Shown here: positions 5,275 to 62,982 of the stretch, one piece after another | Numbering within the stretch: the first letter of the stretch is position 1 | Layout of the letters: each line of letters begins with the position of its first letter | Assembly: GCF_037392515.1 (NCBI RefSeq) | Contig: NC_090280.1 | Span: 74,574,504 to 74,638,503, forward strand | DNA length: 64,000 nucleotides | Source of the DNA: Haliotis asinina | Taxonomy: Eukaryota; Mollusca; Gastropoda; Lepetellida; Haliotidae | Direction: 5' to 3' | Program-made: the position numbers and the translations under genes | Notes under the pieces: model-generated | What the model saw: only the letters and a program-made list of their open reading frames with translations | Told to the model about the DNA's origin: nothing | Database searches by the model: none

Positions 5275-5369
<95 letters not shown>

Positions 5370-17300: not shown

Positions 17301-20300
17301 AAATAAATCCCATGTGGACAATGTGCTTCCTTTCACTTTGGAATCAACGTATTGTCTGCCATGCATGAATGGCTGTATGGAAATTTGTGATCCAAACTGC
17401 ACCGTGTCATCAACTGTATTGTCTATACTGTCATTGGAACTGCAGAACCTAACTTTGGACCACAGCGAAAAATTATCTGGCAATAAAGTTACAAACTCCT
17501 CAGTGATGGATTTTAAAGCCCCAACATACTACGTCAGCGTAAAAGCCGTGAACTTCGCTAATCAATCGACGGTTGTGATGTCAAATGCTTTCCAAGTTGA
17601 CATTACTCCACCACAATTCGATTATATGATGTGTGTTGATCCTCAACATTCTCTGGACGAACCGACCACCTTCATTGGCTCCAATAACAGTGTTGGGGCT
17701 TTTTGGGAATGCAATGAAGATGTCAGTGAAATAGCAGAATACACAGTGCAGATCGGCAATAAGGAAGGCGGGAACGATATTCTGAATGCAACATCGGTTG
17801 AATTAAAGAGAAAAGTTGGTTTGACACTGGAGCATGCGATCCTGGAAGATGGCAAGACGTACTACGTCACGGTGACAGCTATAAATTCAGCAGGATTATC
17901 TGCCAACACGACATGCAATGTGACGGTCATGATGAGCGCACCTGCTGTCTCTAGCGTCTACACACACAGTCTCTTCACCTCAGGGTACACAAAACAGGCC
18001 GTTTCGCTGAGTCCATCACAACGCAGCATCGGTGTCAGTATACACGGCGGATATGACAACCTGTACTATGGTGAGTTTATGTTTGTTTGGTGGTTTGGTT
18101 GTAAAACACCGCACTCTGCAATATCCAAGCTATATGGCAACAGTCGTTAATCTCTGACTCCAGGCAATGCAAACATCAACAGCATGAATATCAGTCTGAA
18201 GTCTGACCACCCGAACCCGTTAGTGTCCACTTATCATAAGTATGGTTTGCCAATGACCAATTCTGTCCAATTCTGTTGAGTTTATACCGATATCCTGATG
18301 TAATTGTATCAGTGTCAGTTATAAGGAAGGGTTTAGAATGCAAACTAATATATTATATGTAATTTGTTTTGGTTATGTTATTGAAACATGAGTAATGCAA
18401 TATTAGTTATAATATTTATTTGGAAGAAAACATCATATCCGAATGCTGTGTATAATATTGTAAATTACGCTGTTTCAGAATGGACAATTGGCACTGTCCC
18501 CGCAACTGATGACGTCTTCCCCATCATCAAAGTGGCAACACCAGCAGATTCCGAAATATCCATTAGTCAGGGGCAACTGATGATCGATGGAAAACTGACG
18601 AACATCTCTCTAAGTGACTACAACACCAACAACACAGGCACCAATATATCCAAATCAGACGGATCCTTCCTGATGCTGGAGCCAGGCAGATGCTACTATC
18701 ACAGTCTCAATGCAGTGAGCCGTTCCCATGTGGCAGTTGCTGTGTCTACTCAACCAGTCTGCATAAAACGTCAGTATCTTGCTTTTCTTCACTTCAAGCC
18801 TTACTAATGAATTTACGAGGTGAAAACGGGGAAGGAATCTTTGTTAATTTCACTTTGACAGATGACGTAAATAGATTCTGTAGATATAGCAAATCATTTT
18901 AAATCAGTTGCATTACTATGAGTTTGACAGCAAGGCAGCTTTCACCAAATAAGTTCAGAATTATTGTTACATTGTCGTTTCAGGAAAGGGTGATATTCTT
19001 GTTGAACTTGAGGATCACAACAGCACCATAAAGACAGTTGTGATTAATGCATCATCAGGTGGCACCAACGAAAGTCTGCAACTGACTGTTAAAGGTAACG
19101 CTGTTCTTCCGAAATATTATTTTGATTGTAATTATGGTTTAAAATGTGTAGCAATTACATTATCGTTAATTAAATTAGAATATGTAATAACTGAGTTTAC
19201 GTATGCACTTGCACAGTGTCCTTTGCCAACAGGCCCTGAGGTTTCAGATCAAAATATGTTTCGGGTTCATTGCAATGGCTAATGGTTCATGTATTAGCGG
19301 ACATATGATTCTATCGAATGATGTATCATATTTCTTCACGTGTTTCCTCTACAGGCTACAACGGAAGTCTCCTAATTGGCAGTTTAAACTCAACTGATTT
19401 TTCATATTTCTTCACGTGTTTCCTCTACAGGCTACAACGGAAGTATCCTAATTGGCAGTTTAAAGTCAACTGATGTTAAATATTTCTTCACGTGTTTCCT
19501 CTACAGGCTACAACGGAAGTCTCCTAATTGGCAGTTTAAACTCAACTGATGTTTCCATGATTTATGGAAGTGCAGCAACTGCAGAATACGTTCCTTACAT
19601 TACTGACCCGCTGGAAACAATGCAAGCTACTTCAAGGCTTCTGTATGGGCGGTATGGAAACTTTCTGATCAAAGTAACGCAAAAAACATCAATGACGGCA
19701 ATCGCCCCTAACACCTAGCTGACATACACACTGGCAATATTAATTTACGCCATGTCGTAAACTAAATGATGTTTATGGAGAACGGGGTTATGGCAGAGTA
19801 GAACTTAATTGTGTGATTTCCGCATTGAAACAGGATCAGGAAGTCGTCGGGACTGACATTCTACATCTCCCCAGCCACCGAAGCATTAGTAGACCCACTG
19901 ATGGATGGCACTATTCATGGTGTAATTCCCGAAGATGCAAACAAGAGCGTCGCCCTGCTTGCTTGGAATAAAGGTATGGCATAGCAACATATGCACATCC
20001 TATTGAAAATAAAAGTGTCATTTCCTCGTGCATCCTTTTGCATTGAATATATGTAAATATCATAAGTATGCATGTGTCTGCAGATGCACAGGAGTGGGAA
20101 CTCGCCCAGGAACACTGCCCCAAAAGCAGCTCTGCAAACAGCAGTACAATGGGAAAGGTAGCAAACGATCCTCCTGTTTCAAAATGAATAAATGAATGAA
20201 TAAACTGCTTTTAGTTACAAGTTCAGTCGAGTGAAAGGATGGAGACGGCACAGCACAGGCTCATGGATCAACACATTTGTCCGAATTTGTGCTCGTGCTC

Positions 20301-23300
20301 CTCGAACCCATCCCTAGTACCAACAGTGAACTGTGTCAATGAGATAGTTTGTTAAACGACTATGACTTCTCAGAACAATTCTATGTTTTCGTTATGACCA
20401 GCGTTTCACTGAGTATAGCAATATAACTGTTCAATAGTTTTCCAGTTATTATGCATTCCATCGGTCCGCATTTGAGGGAAACGGGCTGTAGTTATAAATA
20501 ACCTTGTATGTATGTATGTATGTAATTTCAGTTGTGTCTCCAAGGCGATAGACAATCCATAAACGCAAAAGATTATATCACAATTAGACAACCCCAGCTC
20601 CTGAGCGTATTTGAAATAGACAAGGATGTTCAGAATACACCACCAGTAGTCATCACAAAGACAATTACAACCGACGAAGACGCGCTCCTGACAGAATACA
20701 TTGATGTAATGGACAGAGAGGATGACGAGATTTCCTTTACTCTCACGGCCCAAGGACAGCATGGAAAGGCGTTCCTTACAGCTGATGGATATCTTACGTA
20801 TACCCCTGAACCAGACTATTGTGGAGATGATTCTGTTACGGTAGAAGCAAAAGAACAGAACATTCCTCTTGGAGCCAAGCCATACAGTGTCGTACAGGAC
20901 ATCAACATCCAGGTCCTCTGCACCGAAGATCCTCCAGAACTACGATTCATCAGTCCCAATGATGACGTTTATGATGCAGACGTTGATGCCACTGTGAATG
21001 TTGAACTTTCATCTTCGACAAGCACCTCGACCAGGAAACTCCTAGGGTTCTTTATTCTGTCTGATCGAGACGTTGACACTCTTGACATTGTATTTGACTC
21101 AGCAGCTGCAAAGGAGGTAAACATCGAACTGAAGAACACCACCCAGACTGAATCTGTGAAAGCTCTAAGCAAGCTCAGCCATCACAAAGAAAAGTCTAAC
21201 CTGGTGTATGGGGTTTGGGTCACCGTGCCTGCAAATTCACAACATAATAAAACCATCAAGTTCCGAGCCAAAGACGATATGAAGGTTCACAGTAATCTCA
21301 TATCCTTAGAAATATCTGTCAAGAAGGGTTCGTGCCAAGGTCAAGTTTGTGACGCAATCAAAACACAGGGCCTGAAACGTGATAACGGTAAGCACACTCA
21401 TACATCGACTGATAAAATGAACAGCATGAAACATGCGTTCTTCCCTGAAACAATAGTCTGTGAGTAAATGAGTTTAGTTTTACGCCGTGTTAAGCCCTAT
21501 TCCAGCAACATCACTGTAGGCAACACCAGAAATGAGCTTCACATATTGTACCCATGTGGGGAATCGAACCTGAGTCTTCGGCGTGACGAGCGGACGCTTT
21601 AGTCATTCAGGCAACATTACAGACCCTATATTTTGTGATGAGGCTGGTAGGAGAAACAAAAAGTCTTTCTGAAACATATTGTATAAATGCGTTGAATGTT
21701 CTTTCTGCAGCCAAAGTCTTCAACGACCACCAAGCAGGGAACAAGATGCTCACACCACCTCCGCAGTTGTTCAGGAACGATGTAAGGGCATAGTATCTTT
21801 TGATTATGTTCACCACATTCACTACTGGTGTGAATAATTGACGTGGATGCACAATGAACTAGAATGTTAATGTACAAGGGAAAAGTTACTGGACTAGCTC
21901 TACTAACTTCGGTCTATGCACAAATACAAATCTCGTTGATGCTTTTTTGCTATCGGATTTTTTAGCACCTACTATTTCCACGGTTCCTTGTACAATTTGG
22001 CATTTGATCATTTTGGAATGATTGTACGCAGTTCCTGGGGAAAGGATCGATACAAGGTGGAGCTTCAGGCTTGCAGGGGAGGAGTGTATCTCTCACCAGA
22101 GATGGAATCTTCTCGCTGGCTTTGGACTCTTCTAAGGCCACAGAGGACCATATGGTCTTGACAGCAACAGGTTTGAATTGTTAGGAGGAGAATAATGTCT
22201 AATGGTGCCATGCTGATGGCAATATGACCATGTGTCCTGATCGTCATCGTCCTGTGGCGATTCTGGTTACAATTGATCTTCGGCAACCCTTGCTTGTCGT
22301 AACAGGACAGGGTGGTCAGGTTCGCTGATTTGGTTGTTTCATGCCAATGTATCCCAGCTGCCTAGACAGATGGCCATGGCGTTGATCACTGGATTGTGTG
22401 ATCCAGATTCGATTATTTACAGATCATATGGAATACATACTACTGAGTGTTGTGTTAAGCAACAAACATTAATTTCATCTTACCACTGAATATTATGCAT
22501 TGCCGCTTGTTTATACTTATCCCTTTTGTTGTTTAGGAAAAGTGAACATCTCCACAGCTGACCAAGTTACTGTTGAACAGATGAACTCGAACGCAGACCG
22601 AAACAATAGAGGAAGGTTCGTAGACCAGTTGTTAAATGCAAATATAGTGAACAGCAAATGGTTCGAGAAAATGAAGTAAGCGTTCTTGGTTATGGGTTCT
22701 ATTTAGTTGCCTTTCTTTTTGCCGTTCCGTATAGATGCATTGTTTCTGAAAGCCTGGTATTAGGCTGACTAAAGTTTAATGTACAGAATAAATACATGAA
22801 TGATTGCAGTTATTATCCTCTTATCTCGGTCACAATGTGTGGGTGTGGTTAACACGTCTAATTTGTTTAAAACTAAACTCACTCACTCACTCACTCACTC
22901 ACTTTAGTTTGACTGTTTAAAGTGCGTCTGTCATAAAGTTGGATATTTCTATCGCGATTTAATGAACATAACGATATTTCCGCTGTATTTTAGGTTCGTT
23001 GAGCAACTCGGCACACCGCTGACAATGAATGTCAAACATGAAGACCTAAATGGTACACATGTCGATATGAGAGTTAAATCGGCCCATGACAACACGACCA
23101 GTGTGAAACTTTTCTTCAAAACCAGTGGTAAGCTTATAGTGTCGCAACCATCTCCATCGCACAAAGTCAGCGACCTCCGCGGCCGCCCATCTCGTCATTT
23201 TTCTCCAAAACAATGGGTTTCTGACAACTGGTGGTCAGCCTTGGGTACTTTGTGTACCCCTCTGAGAACTGAAAGTAATCTCTGACTGAGTGAGTATGGT

Positions 23301-25181
23301 TTTACGCCGCTTTTAGTAATAATCTAGCAACATCTCGACGAGTACCCCAGAAATGGGCCTCACATTTGTACCCAGGAAGCGAACCGAACATGGGTTTTCG
23401 GCGTGACGAAGGAACCCTTTAACCACGAGGCTACCCCACGGCCAGCTCTGACAAACACATTGAAATGAATTCTTTTCAAAGGGGAAGGAGTTGTTTTGTC
23501 ATCAGTTTAGAACACATGGTGCTATATGAGTGCAGGATGCTGTATAACCCTACAATTGATTACACATGTTCTTTTCATGCACAGATGATAATATATCAAA
23601 CCTTCGATATTCCCTTGATTTGTTTGGTTCAGATGGTGCCTGGTATCAACTACCTGATGTGTGTAACAGAACGAAGTCAACTGTTCTGACAGAGTACCAG
23701 TACCAAGTGTCTGTAAGTGCATCTTGAGATGTAGTACAAAAAGAGAACCTGAATACTATTGAGCAACAATGATCTTGGCATGTGCGTAATTTTGACGGAA
23801 CAATTATAATGTCAGGGTGTTATATTTCAGTACAATATAGGTTATAGCACAATACTGACAGGAGAGAATATAGTTATTCAAAATATTTGAGAGTGTATTT
23901 CATATTAGTAGGTTATAGCATAAAATTGACGGGAGACGATAGTGATATAGAGAGCATTTGAGCGTGCATTTCATTTTACTAGGTTATAGCGTAAAATTAT
24001 TGAGCGTATGTGTGCGTGTGTTATATTTAAGTGGTATCGTATTTTTGACAGAAGCGGATCGTACACATAGTCGTGTTATGTATTGAAGTTGGTGATAGAG
24101 CAATAATGAGAGGAGAAGACCATATTAGGACAGTAAGGGAAAGTGTTAGGGCGTATATATGAATCGAGCAATATTGATAGCAGGCGGTGTGTGACAGCAT
24201 TTCATCAGCATAAATTCTGCTTGATGTTGACTACATAGCACCAGAGCATATTAATCATAAAGGGTAGGCAACATCACTATTCCAAGTATAAATTCATTGT
24301 ATATTGCTGTGTTCCTTTGATTTTTTCAGCTGTGTCCAGTTCTCTTCGATCAGATGAACCTCACCAAAGCCACCAGCGGAGTCGTATCTATACACGTGGC
24401 AGTATTTGCCGTCAAGGACACCCCTGTGAACACCCCACCAATTCTAGAGGACACCGTCATCTACGTTCAGGAAAGTCATTCACTAAATCACCAAATCAAG
24501 GCAAAAGACCCTGAGGGTGATAAATTCACTTTCCGTTTGACAACGCGCCCAAAACATGGCTACGCTGACGTTCGCTCCACAGGTGGTCTGTTCTATTCAC
24601 CAGCGCCTCACTACAACGGTTTGGATTACATCGGGATTGAGCTTGCGGAGGTGCCCGGAGATGGTGTCAAGCCAAATGTTCAAACATATACCGTTACTAT
24701 TACTGTAACTGCAGTGAATGACCCGCCTCTCATTTACTACCTTCCCCCAAACAGTGGCATGTTCCGAGTAGAGAACAACGACAATGTGGAGCTGGACATT
24801 ACAAGACCGATCCCGTACCAAACAACTGCCGTTGACCTTGGCAACGTCGTCGCGGCAGACTGGGACGAGGAGGATGAGTTCACGTACCAGATAATAAGCC
24901 TGAACAAGACGGATCAGTACTTTGTTGTAGAACCAACTTCTTTACCTGATTCTATCTGGACCAACAAGCTCTCTGACATCAAACGACTTCCACAAAAGAA
25001 AGTCTCCCACCTAGCTCTGCGTGTACCGTCACAGTTCAAGGGCACTTTGATGTACACGGTGACTGTTAAGGATAAGGGTGGAGCACAGGTTCTGCTGAGT
25101 CTGAACGCTAGGGTTTCTTACAAATCCTGTCAAGCTGGAAGTGTGTGTGTTGATCAAGTCAACGCATGGCGCACGGCTTAA
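1..25181 (+). CDS. Gene 1: giant modular extracellular protein (FN3-like and cadherin-like repeats), 5' end outside window
   Basis: No named gene is recognised. I read 34 exons: 1-99, 609-751, 1095-1165, 1376-1530, 2016-2182, 2781-2949, 3369-3925, 4160-4422, 4768-4965, 5549-5752, 5968-6107, 6635-6794, 7019-7089, 7429-7586, 8113-9318, 9781-9875, 10502-11035, 11492-11669, 11992-12176, 12366-13063, 13241-14688, 14817-18070, 18479-18769, 18984-19094, 19507-19651, 19834-19973, 20084-20157, 20532-21387, 21711-21781, 22032-22170, 22537-22675, 22994-23127, 23585-23712, 24330-25181. Lengths sum to 13,233 nt (4,410 codons plus TAA) and every phase joins. Position 1 lies inside or at the edge of an exon, so start and signal peptide are unseen. 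Residues 1-850 are helix-rich then hydrophobic/beta-like with no family recognised. Then come a furin-type site, a PAN-like segment, FN3-like repeats, and two cadherin-like modules. There is no obvious transmembrane segment near the C-terminus, so a secreted matrix role is inferred. Exon 18 ends at a GC donor. Introns not listed separately hold nothing I recognise. Confidence 0.85.
915..1050 (+). mobile_element. SINE B (tRNA-headed), in intron of gene 1
   Basis: The head reads like a tRNA promoter: GGTAGTCAAGTGGTAGT (A-box-like) and GGGTTCACTTCCC (B-box-like). It is followed by GTGCTCCCCGCCGTGATATT and the tail block CTGAAATATTGCTAAAA, then TAAAACTAAATTAACTC. The 3' block is the same as in the other SINEs here. 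Confidence 0.7.
5058..5225 (+). mobile_element. SINE A copy, internally deleted
   Basis: It starts with CACGTGAAGATCCGGGTTAG, jumps to the middle (GATTGATGTTCATGCTGTTG, GGATTGTCTAG), and ends with GGGCGGCGTAAAACTGAACT and CACTC. It lies in the same intron of gene 1 as the (TA)n run. Confidence 0.65.
5278..5366. repeat. (TA)n microsatellite
   Basis: About 44 uninterrupted TA dinucleotides in the intron before exon 10 of gene 1. A long Tyr-Ile open frame across it is a by-product of the repeat. Confidence 0.95.
7261..7335 (-). mobile_element. SINE B fragment, minus orientation
   Basis: GTGAGTGAGTGAGTAT is followed by ATGTACCCATGTGGATAATCG and CAACGTGACGAG, which are the reverse-oriented tail and middle of SINE B. 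It lies in the intron before exon 14 of gene 1. Confidence 0.55.
8312..8340 (+). other. Furin-type processing site in gene 1
   Basis: The translation here reads GKRSKRSAD, which fits the proprotein convertase consensus R-x-K-R followed by S. It separates the unrecognised N-terminal part from the repeat-built remainder, so cleavage would release two chains. Cleavage is inferred from the motif alone. Confidence 0.5.
8900..9080 (+). other. PAN/apple-like domain segment in gene 1
   Basis: Within exon 15 the translation has four closely spaced cysteines: ECAKQC, then KCVSFDFE, then QECELHS. This is the helix-plus-strand Cys pattern of PAN/apple domains, which bind proteins or carbohydrates outside the cell. 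It interrupts an FN3-like unit that ends with the motif IDLTPP near 9200. Identification is by pattern only; a full PAN domain is usually about 75-80 residues and the edges here are approximate. Confidence 0.6.
10150..10345 (+). mobile_element. SINE A copy, 3'-truncated
   Basis: It carries CGCTTGTCGTAAGAGGCGAC, TAACGGGACCTGGTGGTCAG, TTGATCACTATATTG, CGATTATTTACAGACAG and CCATATAGCTGGA, then loses similarity before the tail. It lies in an intron of gene 1. Confidence 0.7.
11120..11400. repeat. Degenerate CACTCA-rich minisatellite
   Basis: The intron before exon 18 of gene 1 is filled with CACTCAACCACTCA-like units of about 12-20 bp with many variants. It leads into a SINE B tail of the same sequence type and may be an expanded SINE tail. 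Confidence 0.7.
11405..11478 (+). mobile_element. SINE B 3' fragment
   Basis: It has GACATTGCTGGAATAATGCT, then AAAAGCGGCGTAAAA, and ends in (TCAC)n, immediately upstream of the acceptor of exon 18 of gene 1. Confidence 0.65.
18165..18360 (-). repeat. Composite repeat: SINE A part plus extra unit
   Basis: A reversed SINE A part (AACATCAACAGCATGAATAT, TGACCACCCGAACCCGTTAG) runs into about 110 bp that also follow SINE A sequence at 27950-28060 (CCAATTCTG, TGTCAGTTATAAGGAAGG, AATGCAAACTAATATAT). It lies in the intron before exon 23 of gene 1. Confidence 0.6.
19328..19555 (+). repeat. 76-bp tandem triplication containing a 3' splice site
   Basis: Three copies with an exact 76-bp period each contain the polypyrimidine tract, CTACAG acceptor and the first about 50 bases of exon 25 of gene 1. 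The acceptor G bases fall at 19354, 19430 and 19506. Only the last copy continues into the rest of exon 25. Confidence 0.9.
20505..20525. repeat. (TGTA)n microsatellite at an acceptor
   Basis: Five TGTA units lie just before the TTTCAG acceptor of exon 28 of gene 1. Confidence 0.8.
21462..21615 (-). mobile_element. SINE B copy, minus orientation
   Basis: It starts with the reversed tail (GAGTTTAGTTTTACGCCG) and includes ATTCCAGCAACAT, GTACCCATGTGGGGAATCGA and CTTCGGCGTGACGAGCGGAC, the full SINE B order in reverse. It lies in the intron before exon 29 of gene 1. Confidence 0.7.
22278..22468 (+). mobile_element. SINE A copy
   Basis: CTTCGGCAACCCTTGCTTGT, CAGGGTGGTCAGGTTCGCTG, TTGATCACTGGATTGTGTGA and GATTCGATTATTTACAGATC, ending in a GTTAAGCAACAAAC tail. 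It lies in an intron of gene 1. Confidence 0.7.
22835..22905 (+). mobile_element. Degenerate SINE tail with (ACTC)n
   Basis: AAACTAAACTCACTCACTC is preceded by weak SINE 3' similarity. Only the tail is clear. Confidence 0.5.
23283..23447 (-). mobile_element. SINE B copy, minus orientation
   Basis: Reversed tail GGTTTTACGCCGCTTTTAGT, then AATCTAGCAACAT, CCCCAGAAATGGGCCTCACA, TTTTCGGCGTGACGAAGGAA and CCACGAGGCTACCC (the reversed A-box region). It is near full length and lies in an intron of gene 1. Confidence 0.7.
23820..24185. repeat. Degenerate minisatellite of about 80-90 bp units
   Basis: GGTTATAGCACAATACTGAC, GGTTATAGCATAAAATTGAC and GGTTATAGCGTAAAATTATT open successive units, each followed by a GAGAG-GATAGT-like block and a GAG-GTGTATTTCAT-like block. 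Two more worn units follow. It lies in the last intron of gene 1. Confidence 0.65.
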
Positions 25182-32042: not shown

Positions 32043-32264
32043 ATAATTCAACATATCAATAGTCAGAAATACACAAAACATGAAAATGTGAATAATATTC
32101 ATATTTAAAATAATCGTTTGTAAATTTATAAGGAATTGGTAGAAAATCGAATCATAATTCAACATATCAGAAGTCAAATATACACACAACACGAAAATGT
32201 GAATAATATCCGTATTTAAAATGATCGTTTGTAAATTTATAAGGAATTGGTAAACAATCGAATC
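32043..32264. repeat. 111-bp tandem duplication upstream of gene 2
   Basis: Units start at 32043 and 32154, both opening with ATAATTCAACATATCA and closing with AATTGGTA-A-AATCGAATC. The two copies are about 90% alike by eye. They lie 275-495 bases before the gene 2 start codon, in the probable promoter region. Confidence 0.75.
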
Positions 32265-32537: not shown

Positions 32538-35500
32538 ATGAAGATTGTACCGTTATGGATTGTTTTCTGTGTAATTTTTGTTAGCAGTACCAATGGCGGG
32601 CGTCGATTTAAACACCAAAGTCGAGGCAGCGATGCTGACGACAATGCTGAATGGGAACTGAACTCTAGAGGGCTTGTGTCACACATCGTCAATCTCGATG
32701 TCCTGCCTGACGTCAGTGTATGTATTCTTTCATGGATCATATCAAGTGACTAACTGACTTAATATCTAACGTCACAGACCCGTGAAGATCCGGGTCTTCA
32801 GCAACCCATACTTACCACAAAAGGCGACTCTGCCTGTCGTAAGAGGCGACTAACAGGATCGGGTGGCCAGGCTTGATTCGACTGACACATGTCATCGGTT
32901 ACCAACTGAGCAAATCGATGCTCATGCTGTTGGTCACTGGATTGTCGGGTCCATTATTTACAGACCGCCGCCATATAGCAGGAATATTGATGAGTAAGGC
33001 CTAACACTCACTCACTCACTCGGCAATGTCACATTGGCAATGTCTAAGGCATATTGGTATACAGAAACTGAAGATAAACTTCTTAATTGTATGTGTTAAA
33101 AGAAGCATTTTATGTTTCACATGTCTTCATACATATATATTACTTGTAATATATGTCAGACATCATCCCAGCGTCCTGAGTGACGTCAGTGTATGTATTC
33201 CTTCACATGTATCATGTCATGTGACTGATGGCGTTAATATTTATGTCACATCGGCAGTGTCTCAGCAAAATCGCGACGAAAACAATTTAAACAACATGAA
33301 CACATTTTGAAGAATAAAAGCTATCGACGATGGACAGTAAAAATACTAGAGTGTCATAGATATGAATATATAACTAGCACGTAAAACTAAAATATTTTAA
33401 TGGTTAATGCTATAGATCACCAACAACTGAGGTATCATATCTTATATCTTTTATGCTGATACATAAATTTTATGTTCAAACCTCAAAACGGGAACACTTT
33501 GCATTGTACATACCTTAATGTTTCAACTACATACAATTTATTTTTTATCGAAAAATAAAAAAGAACGTATTTTTAACCTATTCATAAACAAGATAAATCA
33601 GTAATAACTATGTTATTTCATGATTTCATGCACGACAGAAGCCCATTTCAATTTGCAATTGTCCACATAATATCATCACATTGATGATCACATTGTATTC
33701 CCTGACTGACCTGTACGCATGATTATATTCTATGGTTGAATTTTCATGAGTTTTTTCTTTGCATGGTTTAAATAACAGGTTGCCGAAAACAACAAAGGTG
33801 AGATAATCGTGAATCTTGAGAACAGCTCAGCTGCTTCAGCATGGAAACCAGGGTGGTATCTCATGAGCACTAACGTCCGTCAAAGACAAGGTTTAGAAGT
33901 CAAACAGGTTGCCATTGTCAAGAAAATATTGAATGTAAATATCGTCAGTCCAACAAAGGTCAAAGTCCATGGAATCGACGTCAGGTAAGCATATATTTAC
34001 AGACATTATTTCATTTTTCTTTATTTTGATAGAAACGACGTCTCGAAGTATACTCTGCAAAAAAGTAATGGAACTGTACTTTCCATGTACGATTGTCAAA
34101 ACTGGGAGATACTGGCATTGAATCAATGTTCATACAACAATAATGGATGTTTTGAGACTTCAGCTCCACGTGGATTTCATTCAAAAAAAACTTTGACCCT
34201 CAAAACCCTGACCGTGCACAGATGCAAGACAATTATCGGAAAAAATGGTCTACAGTGATTTGTCGACCTGCCTGAAAAACATCAAGATTCATAATGACAC
34301 CCCATGCACATGTAGGAGGTCCCTGCGTGATTGTGCTTCCTATGCATTGTGTTTGCGTGTGGTGATAACGTGAAATAATGCTGCATACACAAGATGAATG
34401 TCACTGTAACTTTTCTCAATGGGTTTTCTTTCTACCAGACTTCATAGTTCCGGTTCCCCTACATTTTTAAGAGTATACGTTCTTACCCGTTTATCATGTG
34501 GATGAAAGAGTGAGTGAGTTTAGTTTTACGTCGCACTCAGCCATATTCCAGCTATATGGCAGCGGTCTGTAAATAATCCAGTCTGGACCAGACAATCCAG
34601 TGATCAACAGCATGAGCAATTGGGAACCGATGACATGTGTCAACCAAGTCAGCGAGCCTGACCACCCGATCCCGTTAGTCGCCTCTTAGGACAAGCAGAG
34701 TCAACTTTGTAACTAAAAGATTAGGAAATAGACAGACATGTACATACATATAGTCGTCTGTTTCCTAGTCTTTTTATTCTGAGAAAATAAAGTAATTGAC
34801 TGCCATAAATTCCCGTCTTTATGTGTATCATTTCTGATTACGCCGTTCAAACACGCAACATTATTTCAGCTGATGTTAGCATTTCTTCAACTTTCGTTTC
34901 CAGCGCCTTAGACCTACTTCAGGAAGCACAGGTGTTTCTCAGATATCCCCACACAACCAGCAAATATGGTCATCGCCAGAAGAGATATGTGTCCAATCTT
35001 CTCTCTGACGCCTTGGACAAAATCAGCTTCCATGCAATTGATGCTGACGAGTCCATCAACTTTAATTTTGACCCCAAGACTGGTCAGGCAACCCATACGT
35101 ACAATGTATACAAGGAGGAAGCAGGCAAATTTGCCAAGCTCGAAAAGCTCAGCGGAGGACAAAATAGTGCCGTTCCTAGAGATGCAGACTTTCGCCTTTC
35201 GTGTAAGAACTGTTATGAACAGAGACACACTGGGTACACAATGTGAGTACTTCATGATGTATTAAACAGTTTTAAAGAAGGTTGAGTTTGGCAGCATTTC
35301 ACGACTGATTACTTTTTGTTTTCAGGGATCTTCAGATTGAAAGACGAAACAAGACAGCTACTGTCAAGAAGTTTCTAATGCAGGTTATGTTAGAGATTTA
35401 ATATTTCATTTATGAAATTAAATCTAATATATTTACTTCTTTGCCTGCCGTACATTCTGTTTCATTCAGTCATTAAGGATGTAAATTTCAATGGGCATGA

Positions 35501-38500
35501 ATCTTTAAAATCGATTAAATAGATTATTTTGAAAACGGAACACTTATTTTTAATACAGAGTGACGTCAGTACCGACCTCAACGTAGAGTTCGAACTCAGC
35601 TTCCAAAAAGCTCTTGGCCTCTCAGAACGAATTATCATGGAGAATACATCTTCCACCATACTGCGGTCCATACCAGTTGTTGTAGTGGACCAGAAGTTGC
35701 CACACATACAACTGGTCATCTCATATTCCAAAACTGTGTTTCTTGAAATTAACGCAACATCTCATGGACCGATAGACTACAATGGCGAATTCCACATTAG
35801 GGGAAATTACACCATGAGTATGAAAACATTTCTTTGAAAACATTCCAATTGACAGTGTTAAAAATGTATGTTTCTAAAAATCCTTGTACTACATTTTCAC
35901 TTATGATATACCAAACATATAAGAATATATCAAGCCAATGACAGCAACTTCAATATAGATATCACTGGTAAATCACTTTTGTCTACAATACAGTACCTTG
36001 ACGACGTGTTTCCACTTCCTCGGTTGTCTCATTTAGTGCCTGTGTGAGGACATATGCAAAGTAATGTATATTGTTGGAAAATGGGCATCACTGACCATGT
36101 ATTTCCTCAGCTTCTACGGAGTCTTCGGGACAGGTCCCCAAAACAGATTTGACCACAACATCCTGGTCATCTTCAGTTCATTCATTCTCTGGGCGGTCCT
36201 CAAAGCCTTACGTCATCTCAATGTCCCTGTATCAAGAGGTGAGTCGACAGACAATTCTGATGAATTCTTTTCTTCATTCGTTCATTCCACCTTCGGCGTG
36301 TGTCTTTGGGTTTAATTTCTTAGGAGTATTTCATAGAGTGAACGTGTGTGACGTATAACGTTCCATTAGATTTGTCAAGATCTTCCAACAGCTATTAGTG
36401 ATTGGGCAAATTCGGTTTTAGCTATGTTTACCATCTTGTTTGCCAGGTTACTCTGCACGCTTCCGTCAAGTGGTCCGAACATGACGCATCTATAGTGTTC
36501 GCGCCACCGGAAGTCGCAAGCTTCAAGCCTGTTCTCTTCGCCTATACATCCAACGACGAATACAGTCGGTGTGAAACTGCCACGCTAACAGTTGACGGAT
36601 TATTTGCGCACAACAAGTCGGACTTTGTGGCCAAAGCTTTCGATAAAACCATATGGTAAATCATACTCTTCTCCGTTTTGAATATTACCTTCACAAGCAG
36701 TTTTTCCTAACTGCAAAGCAGTTTTCCTTATTGCAAAGATACAACACTTATCAGCGAATACGTGTTCCTTTTGCATGTACCAAATGCTGCAAATATTGCC
36801 CACAGGTTGTATGAATCCAGTTCAGTCTAAGCAGGACAACGATGACTAATTGTACATATAACAAACAATTTCTTCATATTTTAGGGACCTAGCTTTAATA
36901 AGCACGTCCTTCGTTCATAAGACTTTGATGACAGAAACCGTTTCCCACATTTGCTCCGCAAACTGTGGTGGTCTGGCAGCTGATGTTAGCGGGAAGGCCA
37001 TGGAAGACCTGTGCGGTCCAGCGGGCGACAGGATTGTTAGAGGAGACAGCAACTTTCACAAGTAACCTTAAATATGCAGTAGTAGAATGCACGATATTCA
37101 TATAGAAGATATGCAGGTTATTCATATAGAAGTACAGTTTGTGTCACGTTTGTCTTTGAAGCCTTAATTGATTATTACTCTTTTTATCATAGATGCCTTT
37201 TCACGAGCATTACTGAGACAATATTGCTAATTCAAGCTGGTTATCGTTGGTGTATCAAATGTTACTCCCCTCGGTGCCTCGAAAACTGGTGAACAAAAAT
37301 TTTTCAGAAGTGTAATTGTGCATTATCTACTCGTAACCATTTCTTGCAGTTACTTAGGTTATTTCTTTCATGAAATAGATTAACGCTGCTTCAAGGCGAT
37401 TTCATCCTGTTCCGGTCAGAAGAAAGCGAGAACGCTAGCTGGTGTGGAAAACCTGGTAGAAGATGTCATCAATGTGTTTGGAGTGATAATGGCGATAGTA
37501 ATGTTGACGCCTGTGCAGACAGGCTGATGTCGGCAGCAGCAGCATCAAGACTGACCAGTCTGGGTCATCTTGCTAAGAAGGAATGGCCAAACAGTAAGGC
37601 GACGTCGTTTTAGCAAATTCATTCTTTAATCCACAATTCAAAGATGGGGTATGATGAATATACTTTAGCATGCACGTTAGAGTACAAGACCCTCAAAACG
37701 TGTAGTTATTGTTTTTTATATGCCAATAAATGTATCACAGGAAAACTGGTGGTGCTTGAGGCATGGGATGAACCAACGTCAGATCACTCTCAAGGAAAAC
37801 ATGGCGCTTCTTCACTTCACTATTCCGGAAGAGCTCTCCAGGTGGCGCTGACAACTGAACACCCGAACAAAACTACATCACTGCAGTTGGAAACGTCCAC
37901 ATCACTGTTGAAGAGACTGGCAGAACTTGGTGTTTGTGCTGGGTTCCCATTCTTCAATGTCACTTCCGGTCAGGTGCAGTTCTGTGTCCATGATGATTAC
38001 TTGTCAAAGAGTTCTGCCATGGACAATAAGGCAGAGAAGGACTATTTTATGAAAACCTTGAATAAAATAGGTAAATATTTGAGCAAATACATAAACGTCT
38101 GTTCAAGTTTAGTATTCTCAAAACAAAAAAATGTTTCTAGCATTACGATGTGTCACTCTAACTTTTCGCATTCGTTTGTAGTAAACTGCCATTTATACTG
38201 CCATTCAAATATCTCTATCAAAAATGAAACTAAACTCGTGATACATATTCTTTCAGGGTTCAATCATAGCGACATCCAGTGCATTGTAGACAGTATCAAA
38301 CCCTTTTTTCATGGTGTTGATTTTAAAGAAGTCATCAATCCTCTTTTGCAAGACCGTAATATTCAGCACAGGTACAGTTTCTTCTATGTTCCCAAGCCTA
38401 CTGAATTCACAGATTACAGCATTAAACACCATACACTTCCCTAATCCTGATTGATATATTAAAGCAATACGACAATATAATACAAAAGTTTCTGCTGTAC

Positions 38501-41500
38501 GAAATTATGAAGCAATAAGTTAATATGTCCTATGAATCTAAACCCAGTCTTCTGAAGACATTTGCCTTGTACAAACTATATTTTCCACAGGCTAATTCAA
38601 TATCCTTTCGAAGACTTCACATTTGATCCGGAGGGATCCTCGTCAGACACGTGCTATCAGTCGACAAGAAGGTGCAGAAGTACCTGTGAGTTGTCTGTCA
38701 GCGAGGACCCCTGGGATTGGTGTCAGACAAGGGTCATGACTGCCAGAATGGCGATACGGCTCCGTCGACTGTTTCCCATTGTCCAACAGCGTTATCCAGG
38801 TGAGTGTACATGACTTGCAATTACCATCTAGATTTTAATAGTCACATTGTTAAAAGTAAGTTTGACGTTCCCAGTTAACGTATTCACCTTCTTGTCATCA
38901 ATTTCATCAGTTTCAAACGTCTACATACTATGTTTAAGTTTGAGGTTTTCAGTTAAGTATACAATTACTTAATGGTGGCATATGGTCCAGTATATGTGGA
39001 GAACATGTACATATACATGCAAATATCCTATTTCAGGTGTAAAATTGAGAGTAACAAAGAAGGTACAGAATGGCGCTTCTAAACAAAAATCATTTGAAGC
39101 AAATGGCAGGTAAATATTTGTATACGTTAAACCATATCACGAGAAACCAAAGACAACAAAGGAGCTAATGAAATCACAACAATCAAACAGGAGCACTGTT
39201 GGGTTATAAAACAAAGATGCTCCGAATTCGATGTCTTTGAACCTTTACGGCGTCAATAAATCATGATAATTCAATACTACATGTTAGAGTGTGACAATGC
39301 TTTAATATTTCCTCCTAAAGATATCATCCTATATTTACAGGAAAGTACAGATTTCTCCCCCATCCGGCACAACGATGTCTATATCCACGCTCCGCTCAAT
39401 GGCAAACTGCGCAGGTTTTGACTACATAAACAGTTCCAAGTCTTCATCCATTGACGTCTATGTTAAGCTTCAAGACGGTTACCAGGCAACAGTTGTCCCT
39501 TTCCAGGATACGACACTGTTATCTGTTGGGGTTGATGACGAAGACTATGCTTATCCAACAGAACTGAAGAATGAATTTAGAAAACCGTACCTTTTTGACG
39601 GATTTAATCCTGACGTACAATTATCGGAGCACTTCAAGGTATCAGATTTCAAACATTCAAAGACGAGGTTCTTCAGGCTTGACCAGTACTTAGCAGACTG
39701 TCTCGAGCTTGTGGCACAAGAATTTGGTGAAGCCATCAAAATCATTCCCGATTCAGCCTACAGGTACAACACTCACTAAAACTTTCAATGCAACGCAACA
39801 ATGTACGGTTACACTTGAACACGTTGTTAAGTTCATCATATTATTTAGTTCATTTTGAATCTTTATCATACATCTATACTGGTGTATATTCATAGTTATC
39901 ATTCACCACGAATAGGCCTTCAGCAACCCATGCTTAACCTAAAAAAGAGACTTTGCTTGTAAGAGCCGAATAACTGGAATTCCGAAATCTGTTTTCAAAC
40001 AGGATGTCCATGTGGGAAGGATAATGTCGTGATTGTAGGGGTTTGATTACGCTCACGTCCGAAACTCATTTGAAATGATTCTATACAAAATAGACAAGCG
40101 CCAATATGAAAAACGTTTGTATAAGTGCGGGACTAATGGTACCAACATGTTTAAATTGGATTGGCTGTAACATGACTTTCTTTGAAGATATTAGTGTTGG
40201 ATTAATTTATATTCAGTGTATTAACTGTGTGTGTGCTTTTCAGGCCCCATTCCGTCAACATACGTGACATTGCTCACAGACACCCCCAGGAAAAACTGAG
40301 ATTCGAAGCTGGACAAGCTGTGTATGTCACTCCCATCATAGACCAATCAAAGGATTCCCTTGTAAATCTTGGATACTCATTTCTGAGGAGCTGCCCACCC
40401 ATACTTCGTCTGCAGGCACGTGGCCTTGGCATTGGTTGTCACAGCGACAAAATGTACATCGACATTCGCCCGATGGAAGGTGATGAGGATATTGCCGACG
40501 TGTGGAATGTTGATTATGAGCCTGTGTTCGAAATCATCCAGAGAGCAATGGATGATCTTAAGAGAGGTAATGTAATTATGACAGAATCGTGTTTGATACA
40601 ATCCTGCTAGATAAATGACGACATACTCATAAGAGGTTGTGCAATAATTTGTAAATGTTAGCACACTATCTCACGGCTTCAACTTCGTTCTTGACATTTG
40701 AGTTTCGCAGATCTAACAATGTTTAGAAATAAATATATCTGCATGTAACTGTGTATAATTTGCAAAGGTCAGAATATACCAGATATTAAAGTTCGTAATT
40801 TAAGGAGGACCAGCCATACATCCACTGAACGTCAAGAGAACATGTAAAGATCCACGATTTGGAGAACAGTTCGCATACTACTCTTTCAATAAGCACTCAC
40901 TTGGGTACGTATATAAGATTGAAGAAAACAAAGGAGTATAATTAAAAAAGAACAAAGCGTATAATTGCTGTTAAGATTGGTTGTAAAGTCAGTGAAAAAG
41001 AAAAGAGTACACGAATAGCGTATGGAATTCCTGACTGAAAATAGTCGCGTATCAGAGACAATACTAGTATATTACATAGTGAGTGGCTCCTGTGTACAAT
41101 TGTGTTCTAGTATAGTGTACGCTGTACCGATGATGTATCCAACAGGTTCTGTTTCCACGACCGAGAGAGCGACTTCTGCCGTGACACCAGGGAACACAGA
41201 CAACATCAGGCCGACAAACTACGAGATGACTTGATGAAAGTTGCAGGCACCACGATGACCAGGAGAGCGATAGAGCCGGATCTACAGAAGTGTGTTCTGG
41301 ACAACTGTGGCGGATGTCCTGGCAAGGGTAGGACACATGTAAACGTGCTATGGTTACTCTGTCACCCAGGGTTCCGAGACTCATCTTGGTAGCAGGTGCA
41401 TTATTTTGTTGTTCTTGCACTAATTTTGTGTCAAAACAGTTGATCTGATATATACTTATCCTTGATACCCTTGCTGGTCTGAAATTCTTCGTGTCATTAC

Positions 41501-43228
41501 CATTGGGTATAGTTCGGTTCCCTCAAATTAACATTAAGGAGTGCTTGCTTGTGATGATGGTGTCGGTGTTGCTGATGTTGATGCTGATACTACCTTCATT
41601 CTTAAACGAATACTATTTCTCAGGACGAACGTGGGATAAGAAGGTTGAAGGGTGTCTTGGAATGGTCCACACGTACCTGACTCTTGCCAACAACCAGTTC
41701 AGTAATGTGGTCGACAGAGCCGCCTTCTTCAACACCGAGAACGCCGAGTCCAGCGTACATTCACTGGCGTGTCATGATGATGCCCTGTGCGTGGAAAACA
41801 CGCAGCTATACTCACTCATAAGTACGAACCTTTCCTTCATTGACAGACCCATCTTAACCTTTGGGTTCGAATTGATCTTCATCATGCTTGTTGTAAAATT
41901 CGACTATCGGGATTGGGTGACCAGACTCTCTGATTTGGCCCAAATGCCTAGATTGGTGATCATGATGTTGACCACTAGTCCAGACTGGACTCCTTGAAGA
42001 CTCATCGATATAGCTGGAATATTGCTGAGTGCGGCGATAAACAACAAACAAACGAAAAATGGTCGAAATGAACTGTTCTTGCAAACTTCCATTTCAGTAT
42101 AGATTTGTTCATCAATATTGCCAGGGGGAGCAGGTTTTGGTAAAATGATCCTTATAACAATCATAAAGGAATGCAACGTTTACGTTACACTATGAAATTG
42201 TACTTCCAGTGCCTCTGTTGAACTCCAAGTTCAAGCCTGACCCAAAACAGAGCAGGGAGGAGTTGTTGTACAGCGGCGACAACAACCCTTCACCATTGAT
42301 AACCCTAATAGAACAGGAGTTTGCAAGACAAGTGTCTGGGGTTGTGAAGGTTTATATAGAGTCGGAGACAGACATGGCTGTCCTCAGAGATGTTATAAAG
42401 GTATATGGAAAGACAGTCTGATCATTTCGAAGATGTCGTGGTGATAATGCTAACATAATGAGCTTAAGAAAGTTTTATGAGGTTTTACCATTCATTTAGC
42501 AATATTCCAGCAATACTACAGGAGACACTAGAAATTGACTTTTCACAGTTTACCCATGTGGGCAAACCAACTCGGATCTTTGGCGTGACTAGTGAACGCC
42601 AACCACCTAACAACAGCCAAACGTCGCGCCAGAAAATACTAGACAAAGAACTGAAAACGTTTGCTATGAATATAAACCTCTTAGAAATTACGGCATGCAT
42701 TCTACGTCAATGGTGTAGATATTACCTAATTGTGTGTGTTCGATCTTTTGGTAGTACATACATTATAACGAATACAAATTGTTAACCATGCAGATTGAAT
42801 CTTTGTGTATTGCGTACTAGATTAGGAAAAATGAATACTGACTCATTTCATACATGAATCTTCAATGTATTAAACAAAAGAGTCACTGTAATATAATATA
42901 GTTGTCTCCACAGAAACACAAACCCATTCTTTCTCACGGATATGTCATATTCTAGATCCTTATGATATACAACCGGGACGTGACAGAGGTGGAGTTCCAT
43001 CTGACGGACACGGTGGACCAGGACAACGTAATGTCTGCCCTGCAGAGGAAGCTGGAGTACTGGTCAGGGACAGTCTGTCCTCGGTGGAGTCGGTTTGCTG
43101 CTGCTGGCTACAGCGTTCACGACATACCCCATCACAGAAGGAGGAGGAGTCTTGAAAGGAGCAGAAGCAGGAACAAGGTGAAGAAAGCCATGAAGGAGTG
43201 GGAGCTGGACTGGATCAAGAAGATGTGA
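32538..43228 (+). CDS. Gene 2: secreted protein with two Hedgehog-N-like domains and a peptidase M15-like domain
   Basis: Twenty exons: 32538-32717, 33779-33984, 34904-35242, 35326-35383, 35559-35817, 36111-36238, 36447-36655, 36885-37061, 37379-37593, 37741-38070, 38257-38371, 38591-38799, 39037-39109, 39341-39763, 40244-40566, 40711-40744, 41146-41327, 41624-41821, 42210-42400, 42956-43228. They total 4,122 nt (1,373 residues plus TGA) with unbroken phase; the 34-nt exon 16 is the least certain. The ATG at 32538 starts a signal peptide (MKIVPLWIVFCVIFVSSTNG). Residues 60-500 are unrecognised and beta-like, with a furin-type site RQKRY near 34975. Residues about 502-690 resemble the Hedgehog signalling domain, 740-890 a second more diverged copy, and 915-1060 an M15-type domain. 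The C-terminal 300 residues are unrecognised and end in a basic tail (RRRRS). There is no Hint domain, so it is not a canonical hedgehog. Ligand-binding or structural roles are more likely than catalysis. Confidence 0.85.
32775..33021 (+). mobile_element. SINE A copy in intron 1 of gene 2
   Basis: Near complete: CAGACCCGTGAAGATCCGGG, CTTCAGCAACCCATACTTAC, CTGTCGTAAGAGGCGACTAA, CATCGGTTACCAACTGAG, CGCCGCCATATAGCAGGAAT, then (ACTC)n. It sits between two copies of a duplicated exon-1/donor segment. Confidence 0.8.
33172..33250 (+). repeat. Duplicate of the gene 2 exon 1 end and donor site
   Basis: GTGACGTCAGTGTATGTATT and the following about 50 bases match the exon 1 end, donor and early intron at 32700-32775 at roughly 80% by eye. 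The SINE A copy at 32775-33021 lies between the two copies. Confidence 0.6.
33236..33470 (-). mobile_element. 3'-end fragment of the RNase H LINE family
   Basis: The stretch matches the LINE 3' UTR at 58830-59060 in order: a TTAATRTTTA-type tail start, GTCACATCGGCA, a CGTGACGA-like block, a GACAGTAAAA block, a CTAG..TATCA block and ATAGATC with CACCAACAAC. It is diverged and 5'-truncated, as expected of a dead LINE insertion, and lies in intron 1 of gene 2. Confidence 0.6.
34505..34697 (-). mobile_element. SINE A copy in intron 2 of gene 2
   Basis: GAGTGAGTGAGTTTAGTTTT, GCACTCAGCCATATTCCAGC, AATCCAGTCTGGACCAGACA, GTCAACCAAGTCAGCGAGCC and CCCGATCCCGTTAGTCGCCT. High similarity to the other copies suggests recent insertion. 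Confidence 0.8.
37011..38030 (+). other. Hedgehog-N-like domain 1 of gene 2
   Basis: Across exons 8-10 the translation has CGPAG, then HKLTLL, then CADRLM, KLVVLEAWDEP, SSLHYSGRALQV, LKRLAELGVCAGF and QVQFCV. These line up in order with Hedgehog CGPGR, KKLTPL, GADRLM, KLRVTEGWDED, SLHYEGRAVDI, LARLAVEAGFDW and HIHCSV. Of the Hedgehog zinc ligands, the first His (in SLHY) is kept, while the Asp seven residues later and the late His are both Gln. Residues matching calcium ligands are partly kept (E and D of EAWD, D of ADRLM). Confidence 0.75.
38650..39480 (+). other. Hedgehog-N-like domain 2 of gene 2 (diverged)
   Basis: Exons 12-14 give CQTRVMTARMAIRLRRL, then QRYPGVKLRVTKKV, EANGRKVQIS and STLRSMANCAGFDY followed by IDVYVK. 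PGVKLRVT is identical to the Hedgehog core motif and AGFDY matches AGFDW. All zinc-ligand positions (His, Asp, His) and the calcium-ligand Asp/Glu positions are replaced. This fits a tandem duplicate of domain 1 that keeps the fold but not the metal sites. Confidence 0.65.
39600..40500 (+). other. Peptidase M15-like domain of gene 2, metal ligands lost
   Basis: Exons 14-15 give LSEHFKVSDF, then RLDQYLADCLELVAQEFGEAIKI with a Tyr-Arg (AYRR) after it, then FEAGQAVYV, GLGIGCHSDKMYIDIR. The order matches M15 D,D-peptidase-type domains of animals (SEHF entry, Y-R turn, SxHxxGxAxD metal motif, late HxD). The expected His and Asp of the metal motif read as Phe and Tyr, and the late His as Tyr. Catalysis is therefore unlikely. 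M15 peptidases and Hedgehog-N share one fold superfamily. Confidence 0.6.
39905..39985 (+). mobile_element. SINE A head fragment
   Basis: AATAGGCCTTCAGCAACCCA is followed by a diverged AAGAGCCGAATAACTGGAAT. It lies in intron 14 of gene 2. Confidence 0.55.
41866..42056 (+). mobile_element. SINE A copy with AACAA-type tail
   Basis: GGGATTGGGTGACCAGACTC, GATTGGTGATCATGATGTTG, GATATAGCTGGAATATTGCT and GAGTGCGGCGATAAACAACA, then AACAAACG. It lies in intron 18 of gene 2. Confidence 0.65.
42478..42604 (-). mobile_element. SINE B copy, diverged, minus orientation
   Basis: TTTACCATTCATTTAGCAAT, then ATTCCAGCAATAC, TTTACCCATGTGGGCAAACC and TTTGGCGTGACTAGTGAACG follow the SINE B order in reverse. It lies in the last intron of gene 2. 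Confidence 0.6.
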
Positions 43229-62300: not shown

Positions 62301-62980
62301 ATCTGGTATATGATGGAGAGCCAGATGGGGTATTTTCTGATAATATAGTTGGCAAGTGGTCACTTCCACAGACGTCATTGTGGACTGACCAATCAAATTC
62401 ATTAAGTAGAGTAGAGTCTGCGAGAGACAAATCTAGACAAGAGTAGGTGCCAGTTGCAGGATGCAGATAAGTGCTTGAATCATCATTGTACATACACAAG
62501 TCATTATTGGCTATAAAATCTTCCAGTAGTTTACCTTTAGTGTTCCAGTAGTTTACCCCAAATTGGGTTATGGCCATTGAGATCACCCATTATGATGCAT
62601 GGTTTAGGAAGTTGGTCATAGAGACCTTGTAGATCAGACTGCTGGAGTGCTGAAGAAGGCGGAATATACCGAGAGCATAGTGTAAAGGTAACATGAAGAG
62701 TTAGTCTCACTGAAACAGCTTGGAGATTAGTTGTGAGTGCTACAGGACTATGGATAACATCCTGCTTTACAAGGATTGAAGAACCTCCAGTGGCCCTGTC
62801 ACCCGGAGGTGACAAATAATTATATGAAACGAACTGACGTAAATCGAAAGTATCTGTCTGCTTCAAATAGGTTTCCTGCAGACAGAAGGCCGATGGTGCA
62901 AAATCCTGGATTAGTAGCTGTAACTCATTGAAATTGGTCCTTAACCCTCTACAATTCCACTGTACTATAGTTTTGGAACG
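59351..62980 (-). pseudogene. LINE ORF2: AP endonuclease, reverse transcriptase, RNase H, broken
   Basis: The frame opens right after the ORF1 stop with an endonuclease start (TIVQWNCRGL) and carries CLQET, IIMGDLNGHNPIWG and SDHLP. Reverse-transcriptase blocks follow (IPKPGRDHTDPSNYRPISL, QCGFRKNRCTIDHL, QGVPQGSILS, LFVDDF), then a RNase H domain (FTDGSKDGG, FTAEANA, SHVGISGNTLADLA) and a C-terminal Cys-rich end. Breaks: a 15-bp local duplication near 62525-62560 shifts the endonuclease frame; a second shift lies near 61210-61260; about 20 residues appear missing just after FVDDF compared with related elements; and the third RNase H acidic residue reads as Asn (YSNS instead of YSDS). It is therefore inactive. 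Confidence 0.8.
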
Positions 62981-62982
62981 GA

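Follow-up and report, generated by a model that had tools for sequence, protein, structure and literature searches.

We describe here a gene, called gene 2, which lies in a 64,000-nucleotide stretch of the genome of the gastropod Haliotis asinina (RefSeq assembly GCF_037392515.1, contig NC_090280.1, positions 74,574,504 to 74,638,503 of the forward strand). This whole stretch is called the window, and its first letter is position 1. The predicted product of gene 2 carries two tandem Hedgehog signalling (Hedge) domains followed by a domain related to Peptidase_M15_3, and the zinc ligands typical of both kinds of domain have been lost. From sequence comparisons we propose, with moderate confidence, that the product would be a non-enzymatic extracellular binding protein using the Hedgehog/D,D-peptidase fold as a binding module. 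An earlier note, made from the letters of the window alone, had claimed the three domains in one chain, a long unrecognised N-terminal half and no Hint domain. The searches reported below agree with it on these points.

Results

Gene 2 and its predicted protein

Splice-site chaining placed gene 2 on 20 exons at 32538-43228 (+). The reading frame opens with an ATG at 32538 and closes with a TGA whose last base is 43228. The 19 introns are all GT-AG and continuous in phase, leaving 1394 codons without a stop. This structure, predicted from splice logic and from two paralogues (P2 and P3, described below), would yield a protein of 1394 amino acids (aa). Its features are the following.

32538-32717, 33779-33984, 34904-35242, 35326-35383, 35559-35817, 36111-36238, 36447-36655 (+): coding region of gene 2 (20 exons, 1394 aa), exons 1-7
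36885-37061, 37379-37593, 37741-38070, 38257-38371, 38591-38799, 39037-39109, 39341-39763 (+): exons 8-14
40244-40566, 40808-40904, 41146-41327, 41624-41821, 42210-42400, 42956-43228 (+): exons 15-20
32538..32600 (+): signal-peptide-like N terminus, aa 1-21 (hydropathy; kept in P2)
32601..37011 (+): aa 22-502, no recognised domain (Pfam, profile comparisons)
37012..38009 (+): Hedge domain 1, aa 503-680, exons 8-10 (Pfam, PDB sequence match, hhalign)
37428..37514 (+): Cys-rich insert of domain 1 (approximately aa 536-564), flanked by the DEE and ADRLM motifs
38591..39479 (+): Hedge domain 2, about aa 739-879, exons 12-14 (Pfam, PDB, hhalign)
38634..38723 (+): Cys-rich insert of domain 2 (approximately aa 754-783), counterpart of the insert in domain 1
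39585..40565 (+): Peptidase_M15_3-like domain 3, aa 915-1081, exons 14-15 (PHROG, profile comparisons, predicted structure of the P3 copy)
40566..43225 (+): C-terminal region, aa 1082-1394, no recognised domain

The signal-peptide-like start, MKIVPLWIVFCVIFVSSTNGG, exceeds every other 19-residue stretch of the protein in hydrophobicity and is kept in P2 as MKIVPVWIVFCVVSVSTTNGG. No second hydrophobic segment was found in the protein (next best 19-residue mean, 1.24), which is predicted to be secreted. Sites of the form R-x-K/R-R occur at aa 153 (the furin-like RQKR, aa 153-156, also present in P2), at aa 795 within domain 2 and at aa 1365, where the C-terminal region has a polybasic RRRRS (aa 1365-1369). 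P2 carries all three and one extra, and cleavage by furin may be expected. About 480 aa before and 310 aa after the three domains had no Pfam match, and five other parts of the protein gave a probability of at most 2.5% against the HH and M15_3 profiles. The possibility of a fourth, degenerate domain beyond aa 1090 was rejected, both HH and M15 signals being absent there. The span given in the earlier note, 37011 to 40500, starts where domain 1 does (the codon of C503 is at 37012) and stops just past the last conserved motif of domain 3, but the gene continues to 43228. This end, the loss of the zinc sites and the two paralogues had been missed.

Identity of the three domains

A Pfam search with the whole protein returned HH_signal (PF01085) at 9e-25, in two stretches, and nothing else at E<=1. 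Both stretches matched by themselves, at 4.6e-13 for aa 519-681 (domain 1) and 1.4e-9 for aa 747-879 (domain 2). The best PDB sequence matches were fly Hedgehog for domain 1 (2ibg, 1.7e-9) and Indian hedgehog for domain 2 (3k7i, 6.8e-7). Domain 1 extends upstream of the Pfam match to aa 503, and its block RIVRGDSNFHKL...ILFRSEES aligns with the block KIVRGTPEF...FKDEE of bacterial Hedgehog (Hh) proteins. As a single sequence, it had no confirmed relative in viral and genome scans. We also tried to read the CGPAG at aa 503 as a counterpart of the Hh lipid motif CGPGRG, but in the alignment it falls on GASGR, further along in Shh, so this reading was dropped. No Hint/Hog domain accompanied HH_signal in the Pfam scan, and of the seven Hint matches reported genome-wide none was near the three gene 2 loci.

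Domain 3 alone had no M15 match in Pfam or NCBIfam. Its PDB sequence search returned 21 matches with no M15 enzyme among them, led by designed 'Cake' repeat proteins via many sub-threshold copies. It matched PHROG phrog_894 'endolysin' at 1.5e-4. A tblastn search of phages gave 26 records; 8 of the 20 listed were annotated as peptidase M15, 10 as endolysin, 1 as kinase and 1 was unannotated, these single matches not being significant because their E-values are 1 to 5. One matched phage protein, P0001, is a Peptidase_M15_3 by Pfam (5.5e-25), and an M15_3 profile was built from it and 73 distinct sequences of phage and viral loci. Against this profile domain 3 scored 19.2 bits, the highest shuffle reaching 12.1 (20,000 made, 12,446 reported with a score). 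When domain 3 and its two paralogues were compared with Peptidase_M15_3, hhalign gave 96.5% (E 1e-9) over 109 of 116 profile columns. None of 200 column shuffles came near, the best scoring 22.1 against 58.6 for the real one. In cross-controls with hhalign, domains 1 and 2 gave 0.6% and 0.1% against M15_3, and domain 3 gave 0.1% against Hh. Of the Pfam profile matches that the earlier note had proposed as a check, HH_signal was obtained for domains 1 and 2, whereas the M15 model was silent on domain 3 and the likeness to M15_3 was seen by profile-profile comparison.

The predicted fold of domain 3 pointed the same way. The P3 copy, contained in one open frame on C8, was modelled by AlphaFold2 with a predicted local distance difference test score (pLDDT) of 84.6 and a predicted template modelling score (pTM) of 0.80. 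A search of a library of viral structures gave 321 matches at E<=10, of which 11 had E<=0.001, with TM-scores of 0.47-0.62 by query length. These 11 comprised seven named peptidases, among which three were M15 or M15A, one putative peptidoglycan-binding domain and three unnamed entries. In the PDB fold search, the M15 enzyme VanXYc took ranks 2, 3, 14 and 22 (TM-scores 0.33-0.37; E 0.081 at ranks 2 and 3), with IMP-nucleotidases ahead of and among these matches. The SxYR motif, whose arginine binds substrate in M15 enzymes, is kept in domain 3 of all three paralogues, as SAYR in the window (R974), TAYR in P2 (first residue T) and SGYR in P3.

Three further matches were recorded. A Microviridae protein named after Sonic hedgehog (BFVD A0A8S5SY19) matched the domain 3 model weakly, at rank 25 (E 0.039). 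Pfam Peptidase_M15_3 matched a small contig (C132:19807-20111, -) at 4.3e-7 with an adjoining match at 0.396, which may come from a contaminating bacterium or from an animal M15 gene. This M15_3 model also matched an exon of the canonical hh gene on C10, at 27.2 bits.

Zinc and calcium ligands

The active-site residues of Shh are described as E127, H135, H141, D148, E177, H181 and H183, and its calcium ligands as E90, E91, D96, E127, D130 and D132 (PMC4102407). We read the corresponding residues of domains 1 and 2 from hhalign alignments to Shh, taking H141/D148/H183 as the zinc triad. For domain 3, the M15 triad (H, D, H) was located by its H-X6-D spacing and HID motif. In domain 1 the triad is H617/Q624/Q670 in the window, H,Q,E in P2 and H,A,N in P3. 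The window copy retains E127, H135 and H141, while D148 has become Q, E177 T, H181 Q and H183 Q. In domain 2 the triad is E829/Q836/D871 in the window and likewise E,Q,D in P2. In domain 3 it is F994/Y1001/Y1045 in the window, Y,H,Y in P2 and F,E,Y in P3. An intact triad was therefore found in none of the eight readable domain copies of the three paralogues (domain 2 of P3, partly read, is uncounted). The canonical hh of this genome, used as a positive control and compared with Shh by eye, has all seven active-site residues.

The calcium ligands have fared differently in domain 1. Five of the six (E90, E91, D96, E127 and D130) are kept in the window gene and in P2, the D132 position lying at a gap edge where it was not called, and E90, E91 and D130 are present in P3. 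Domain 1 may therefore bind calcium. Drosophila Hh, described as having lost zinc and kept calcium, is a precedent (PMC4102407; PMC6027127).

Internal duplication and position relative to animal Hedgehogs

Domains 1 and 2 matched each other in profile-profile comparison at 99.0% (E 6.6e-18), Cys-rich insert included. The insert has the shared pattern C-x6-C-x(2-3)-C followed by a fourth Cys, and is absent from mouse Shh, from the animal's own hh and from the seven bacterial Hh proteins compared. The introns bounding the insert exon have equal phases in the two domains, phase 2 for E8/E9 and E11/E12 and phase 1 for E9/E10 and E12/E13. The first pair falls at an identical site if the alignment is extended ungapped, and the second is offset by one codon. 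The shared insert and intron phases indicate that the two domains arose by internal duplication. Q stands at the D148 site in both Hedge domains of the window gene and P2, and A in domain 1 of P3.

In a tree of 15 rows and 98 columns (midpoint root), the three animal Hh sequences, from mouse, fly and this animal, formed a clade (98/100) with domains 1 and 2 outside it; 7 of the 12 inner branches were open and the domain branches were long. As far as so small a tree goes, the two domains seem not to have branched off late from this animal's hh gene.

Paralogues and selection

We compared the whole gene 2 protein with its own genome (1.143 Gb in 159 contigs). At least 42 exon matches at E<=1 were obtained, distributed over the window locus (19), C1:74472-74484 kb (15), C8 near 63.07 Mb (5) and contig C59 (3), these counts being lower bounds. 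The C1 locus, 123 kb from gene 2, is P2, for which the same 20 exons and phases gave 1404 aa with no internal stop; this model proves only that such a solution exists, because the same phases were required in building it and the short exons 11 and 13 were weakly placed. P3, on C8, is more diverged. Among its 14 tblastn rows, 2 were cross-matches between Hedge domains and the other 12 were collinear from aa 132 to 1394, at 23-58% identity, a divergence that hints at an old family. A near copy of part of P3 lies on the 71-kb contig C59 (C59:63649-70786, -), with 98.8% identity across 4.9 kb and 89.7% across 1.2 kb, and is probably a haplotig or a recent duplicate. The canonical hedgehog gene is separate from all these loci.

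Gene 2 and P2 are 70.4% identical over 1391 codons, with a nonsynonymous divergence (dN) of 0.183, a synonymous divergence (dS) of 0.817 and dN/dS of 0.224. The ratio was 0.235 for domain 1, 0.159 for domain 2 and 0.218 for domain 3, and between 0.09 and 0.31 in every part tested, showing that gene 2 is under purifying selection. The last exon (window 42956-43228, C1:74484050-74484322) is 96.7% identical between the two genes with a dS of 0.16, against 68.4% and 0.91 for aa 21-1304, and gene conversion is a possible cause.

Proposed function and alternatives

As to function, the earlier note had offered, as speculation, a hedgehog-related secreted factor or a decoy for Hedgehog-pathway partners. 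With the zinc sites lost and, in our small tree, domains 1 and 2 outside the Hh clade, the likely function shifts towards a non-signalling binding protein. We propose that the gene 2 protein would be secreted, probably trimmed by furin, and would use the Hedgehog/D,D-peptidase fold for binding, being neither an enzyme nor a lipid-modified signal. The binding part would consist of the two tandem Hedge domains, duplicated with a Cys-rich insert in the calcium loop, and the M15_3 domain, all with lost zinc ligands. A hedgehog-type calcium site in domain 1 would keep the binding surface rigid.

Several observations weigh against the domain assignments or against this proposal. An exon-by-exon search of the genome with Pfam HH_signal gave two matches, both canonical hh exons, and did not report gene 2, whose Hedge domains are split by introns. 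The same kind of search with Peptidase_M15_3 gave three matches, none in the window. Under structure prediction, also put forward in the earlier note, the P3 copy of domain 3 looked M15-like in the viral library. This fold match counts as support and not as independent proof, because 30 of the 35 rows of the AlphaFold input alignment were already viral M15 sequences, and the PDB fold search was weak (0 of 534 at E<=0.001). For domain 1, the model of the half-domain in exon 10 was poor (pLDDT 73), and no Hedgehog appeared in the 50 listed of its 69 PDB matches. The calcium site is not shared by all family members, since P3 keeps neither D96 nor E127, and domain 2 has lost most of the calcium ligands. 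The calcium loop might be disrupted by the Cys-rich insert that it contains. The presumed lack of catalysis is read from the ligands by themselves, and exons 11 and 13 of P2 were placed on weak similarity.

An alternative role lies in the animal's own Hedgehog pathway, where the protein might act as a decoy or modulator, domain 1 mimicking the Hh surface for CDO/BOC-type FN3 domains or heparan sulphate and competing with true Hh. The genome keeps a canonical hh gene and domain 1 keeps its calcium ligands, which would fit the described preference of CDO for calcium-loaded ShhN (PMC4102407). But domain 1 has a low identity to Hh (35% over aligned columns) and begins at aa 503, no CGPGRG-like start with a lipid-modified Cys being found at the mature N terminus, and its insert sits in the very calcium loop concerned. 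We regard this role as unlikely.

A function in pattern recognition or mucosal defence seems rather doubtful to us. The zinc-less M15 domain would bind peptidoglycan peptides of bacteria without cutting them, and the Hedge domains would aid adhesion. The resemblance of domain 3 to a peptidoglycan-peptidase family and the conserved SxYR motif speak for it, as does rusticalin, a secreted animal protein with an M15-type domain described as made by ascidian blood cells (PMC6339383). Domains 1 and 2, however, are Hedgehog-like and not M15-like, and selection on domain 3 is no stronger than elsewhere (0.218 against 0.224 overall).

That the protein is still an enzyme with altered metal ligands is very improbable. 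Domain 1 retains the H135 and H141 positions and P2 has H-x-E where Shh has H-x-H, but the D148, E177, H181 and H183 positions have all changed in domain 1 of the window, and the triad is wholly out of place in domain 2 (window and P2) and domain 3 (all three paralogues). Finally, a gene model that joins unrelated exons of neighbouring genes is hardly credible: paralogues with the same exon order argue for a single gene, as the earlier note had it, the 20 exons and phases being placeable at P2 and the blocks collinear at P3, with dN/dS low in each part tested.

Relation to known proteins

Gene 2 shares with the Hedgehog ligands (PF01085) the Hedge domain motifs and, in domain 1, five of the six calcium ligands, most of which are lost in domain 2. 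It differs from them in having two Hedge copies, internal in a protein of 1394 aa, a Cys-rich insert and no Hint domain, and in the loss of the zinc triad, the motif H-X6-D / H-X-H being absent from the eight readable domain copies of the three paralogues. Bacterial Hh proteins have the same block order as domain 1, which gave a tblastn match on a Pararhizobium gei plasmid (36.5%, 3e-6; one of 72,556 records at E<=0.01). A scan with this Pararhizobium protein gave six loci. The seven bacterial Hh proteins compared keep the zinc residues, unlike gene 2. These zinc-intact proteins (L007-L013) come from the Pararhizobium plasmid, a Sumerlaeota and a Paenibacillus metagenome-assembled genome, Algibacter, two Flavivirga and Lacinutrix.

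The nearest published kind that we found is Hedgling of sponges, cnidarians and choanoflagellates, described as another large extracellular protein with Hedge but without Hog and with an incomplete peptidase motif (PMC6027127; PMC2362128). As far as these descriptions go, the single Hedge domain of Hedgling is N-terminal, and in Nematostella VWA, cadherin, Ig and EGF domains and a membrane segment come after it. In gene 2, by contrast, there are two Hedge domains, both internal, together with an M15 domain, and no adhesion domain was recognised. No Pfam match to VWA or cadherin repeats and no hydrophobic segment that could serve as a membrane anchor was found in the gene 2 protein. Lophohog of molluscs and annelids is described as a lophotrochozoan Hh-related gene with Hog and without Hedge (PMC9695228); gene 2 is the reverse, with no Hog domain in the Pfam scan.

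Domain 3 shares sequence profile and predicted fold with the Peptidase_M15_3 (PF08291) endolysins of phages and bacteria, but lacks the zinc triad and lies within an animal secreted protein beside Hedge domains. The rusticalin-like proteins of tunicates, amphioxus, a coral and a placozoan are likewise secreted animal proteins with an M15/MD-type peptidase domain. They are described as having about 230-271 aa and Cys-rich repeats, rusticalin having two such repeats and one M15 domain, with no Hedge domain reported in that description, and the family's catalytic residues are conserved, rusticalin itself being truncated (PMC6339383); in gene 2 the zinc residues are lost. Among the matches listed from the open-licence PMC literature, titles and abstract starts contained no description of the gene 2 architecture. 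The family thus appears to be an arrangement of known folds not found described.

The origin of the Hedgehog signalling domain and the importance of its zinc site are described as debated (PMC6027127). The gene 2 family offers a natural experiment on what binding requires of the fold, with Hedge doubled, zinc dropped, calcium mostly kept in domain 1 and an M15 domain adjoining. It represents a further use of Hedge apart from Hog, besides Hedgling, in an animal with a normal hedgehog gene, and adds a new case of an enzyme fold put to other use beyond the hedgehog signalling proteins. Its domains are small enough for expression and testing.

Neighbouring gene and remainder of the window

One other gene was recognised upstream of gene 2.

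3276..25178 (+): gene 1, open frames (FN3, PAN and cadherin-like/Big_9 Pfam matches)

Its frames matched FN3 at 3.7e-10 over several weak copies, PAN at 9.2e-7 and Big_9/cadherin-like models at 1.1e-9 and 7.4e-9. For the largest frame there is a paralogue (77%, with one stop codon in the match) at C1:74454 kb, some 15 kb ahead of P2. The same frame also has matches of 37% and 33% at C8:63.136-63.139 Mb, about 55-60 kb from P3 on the opposite strand. A second frame showed the same pattern (53% and 26%). More distant copies of the FN3-like part were seen on C1, C8, C16, C20, C119 and C152. In a hydropathy scan for a membrane anchor of gene 1 (19 residues, open frames at 25.0-29.0 kb), the top mean was 2.03, in a frame not tied to gene 1.

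A large FN3/cadherin-like extracellular gene thus lies within about 60 kb of gene 2 at all three loci. This linkage suggests that the two proteins work together, and it may also be plain co-duplication. By analogy, the Hedge domains of gene 2 might form an ancient non-signalling branch that binds the FN3 domains of gene 1 through the calcium surface, as a two-gene extracellular system; this is a long shot, suggested by the described binding of Shh to an FN3 domain of CDO (PMC6223220), preferentially in the calcium-loaded form. The CDO analogy is not general, because Drosophila Ihog is described as binding Hh elsewhere and without calcium (PMC4102407). If the pairing were true, hedgehog/FN3 recognition would exist outside the Hh pathway and might predate it.

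No further copies of gene 2 were found within the window, and an Rfam search of it matched nothing. Just upstream of gene 2, at 32046-32262, two head-to-tail repeat copies of roughly 110 bp each were seen by eye. Retrotransposon remains lie at 59354-62989 (-), with reverse transcriptase (1.6e-12) and RNase H (1.4e-5) matches in the 59354-61276 frame. By eye, the open frames up to 62989 and a zinc-knuckle-like frame at 63104-63865 also look like retrotransposon parts.

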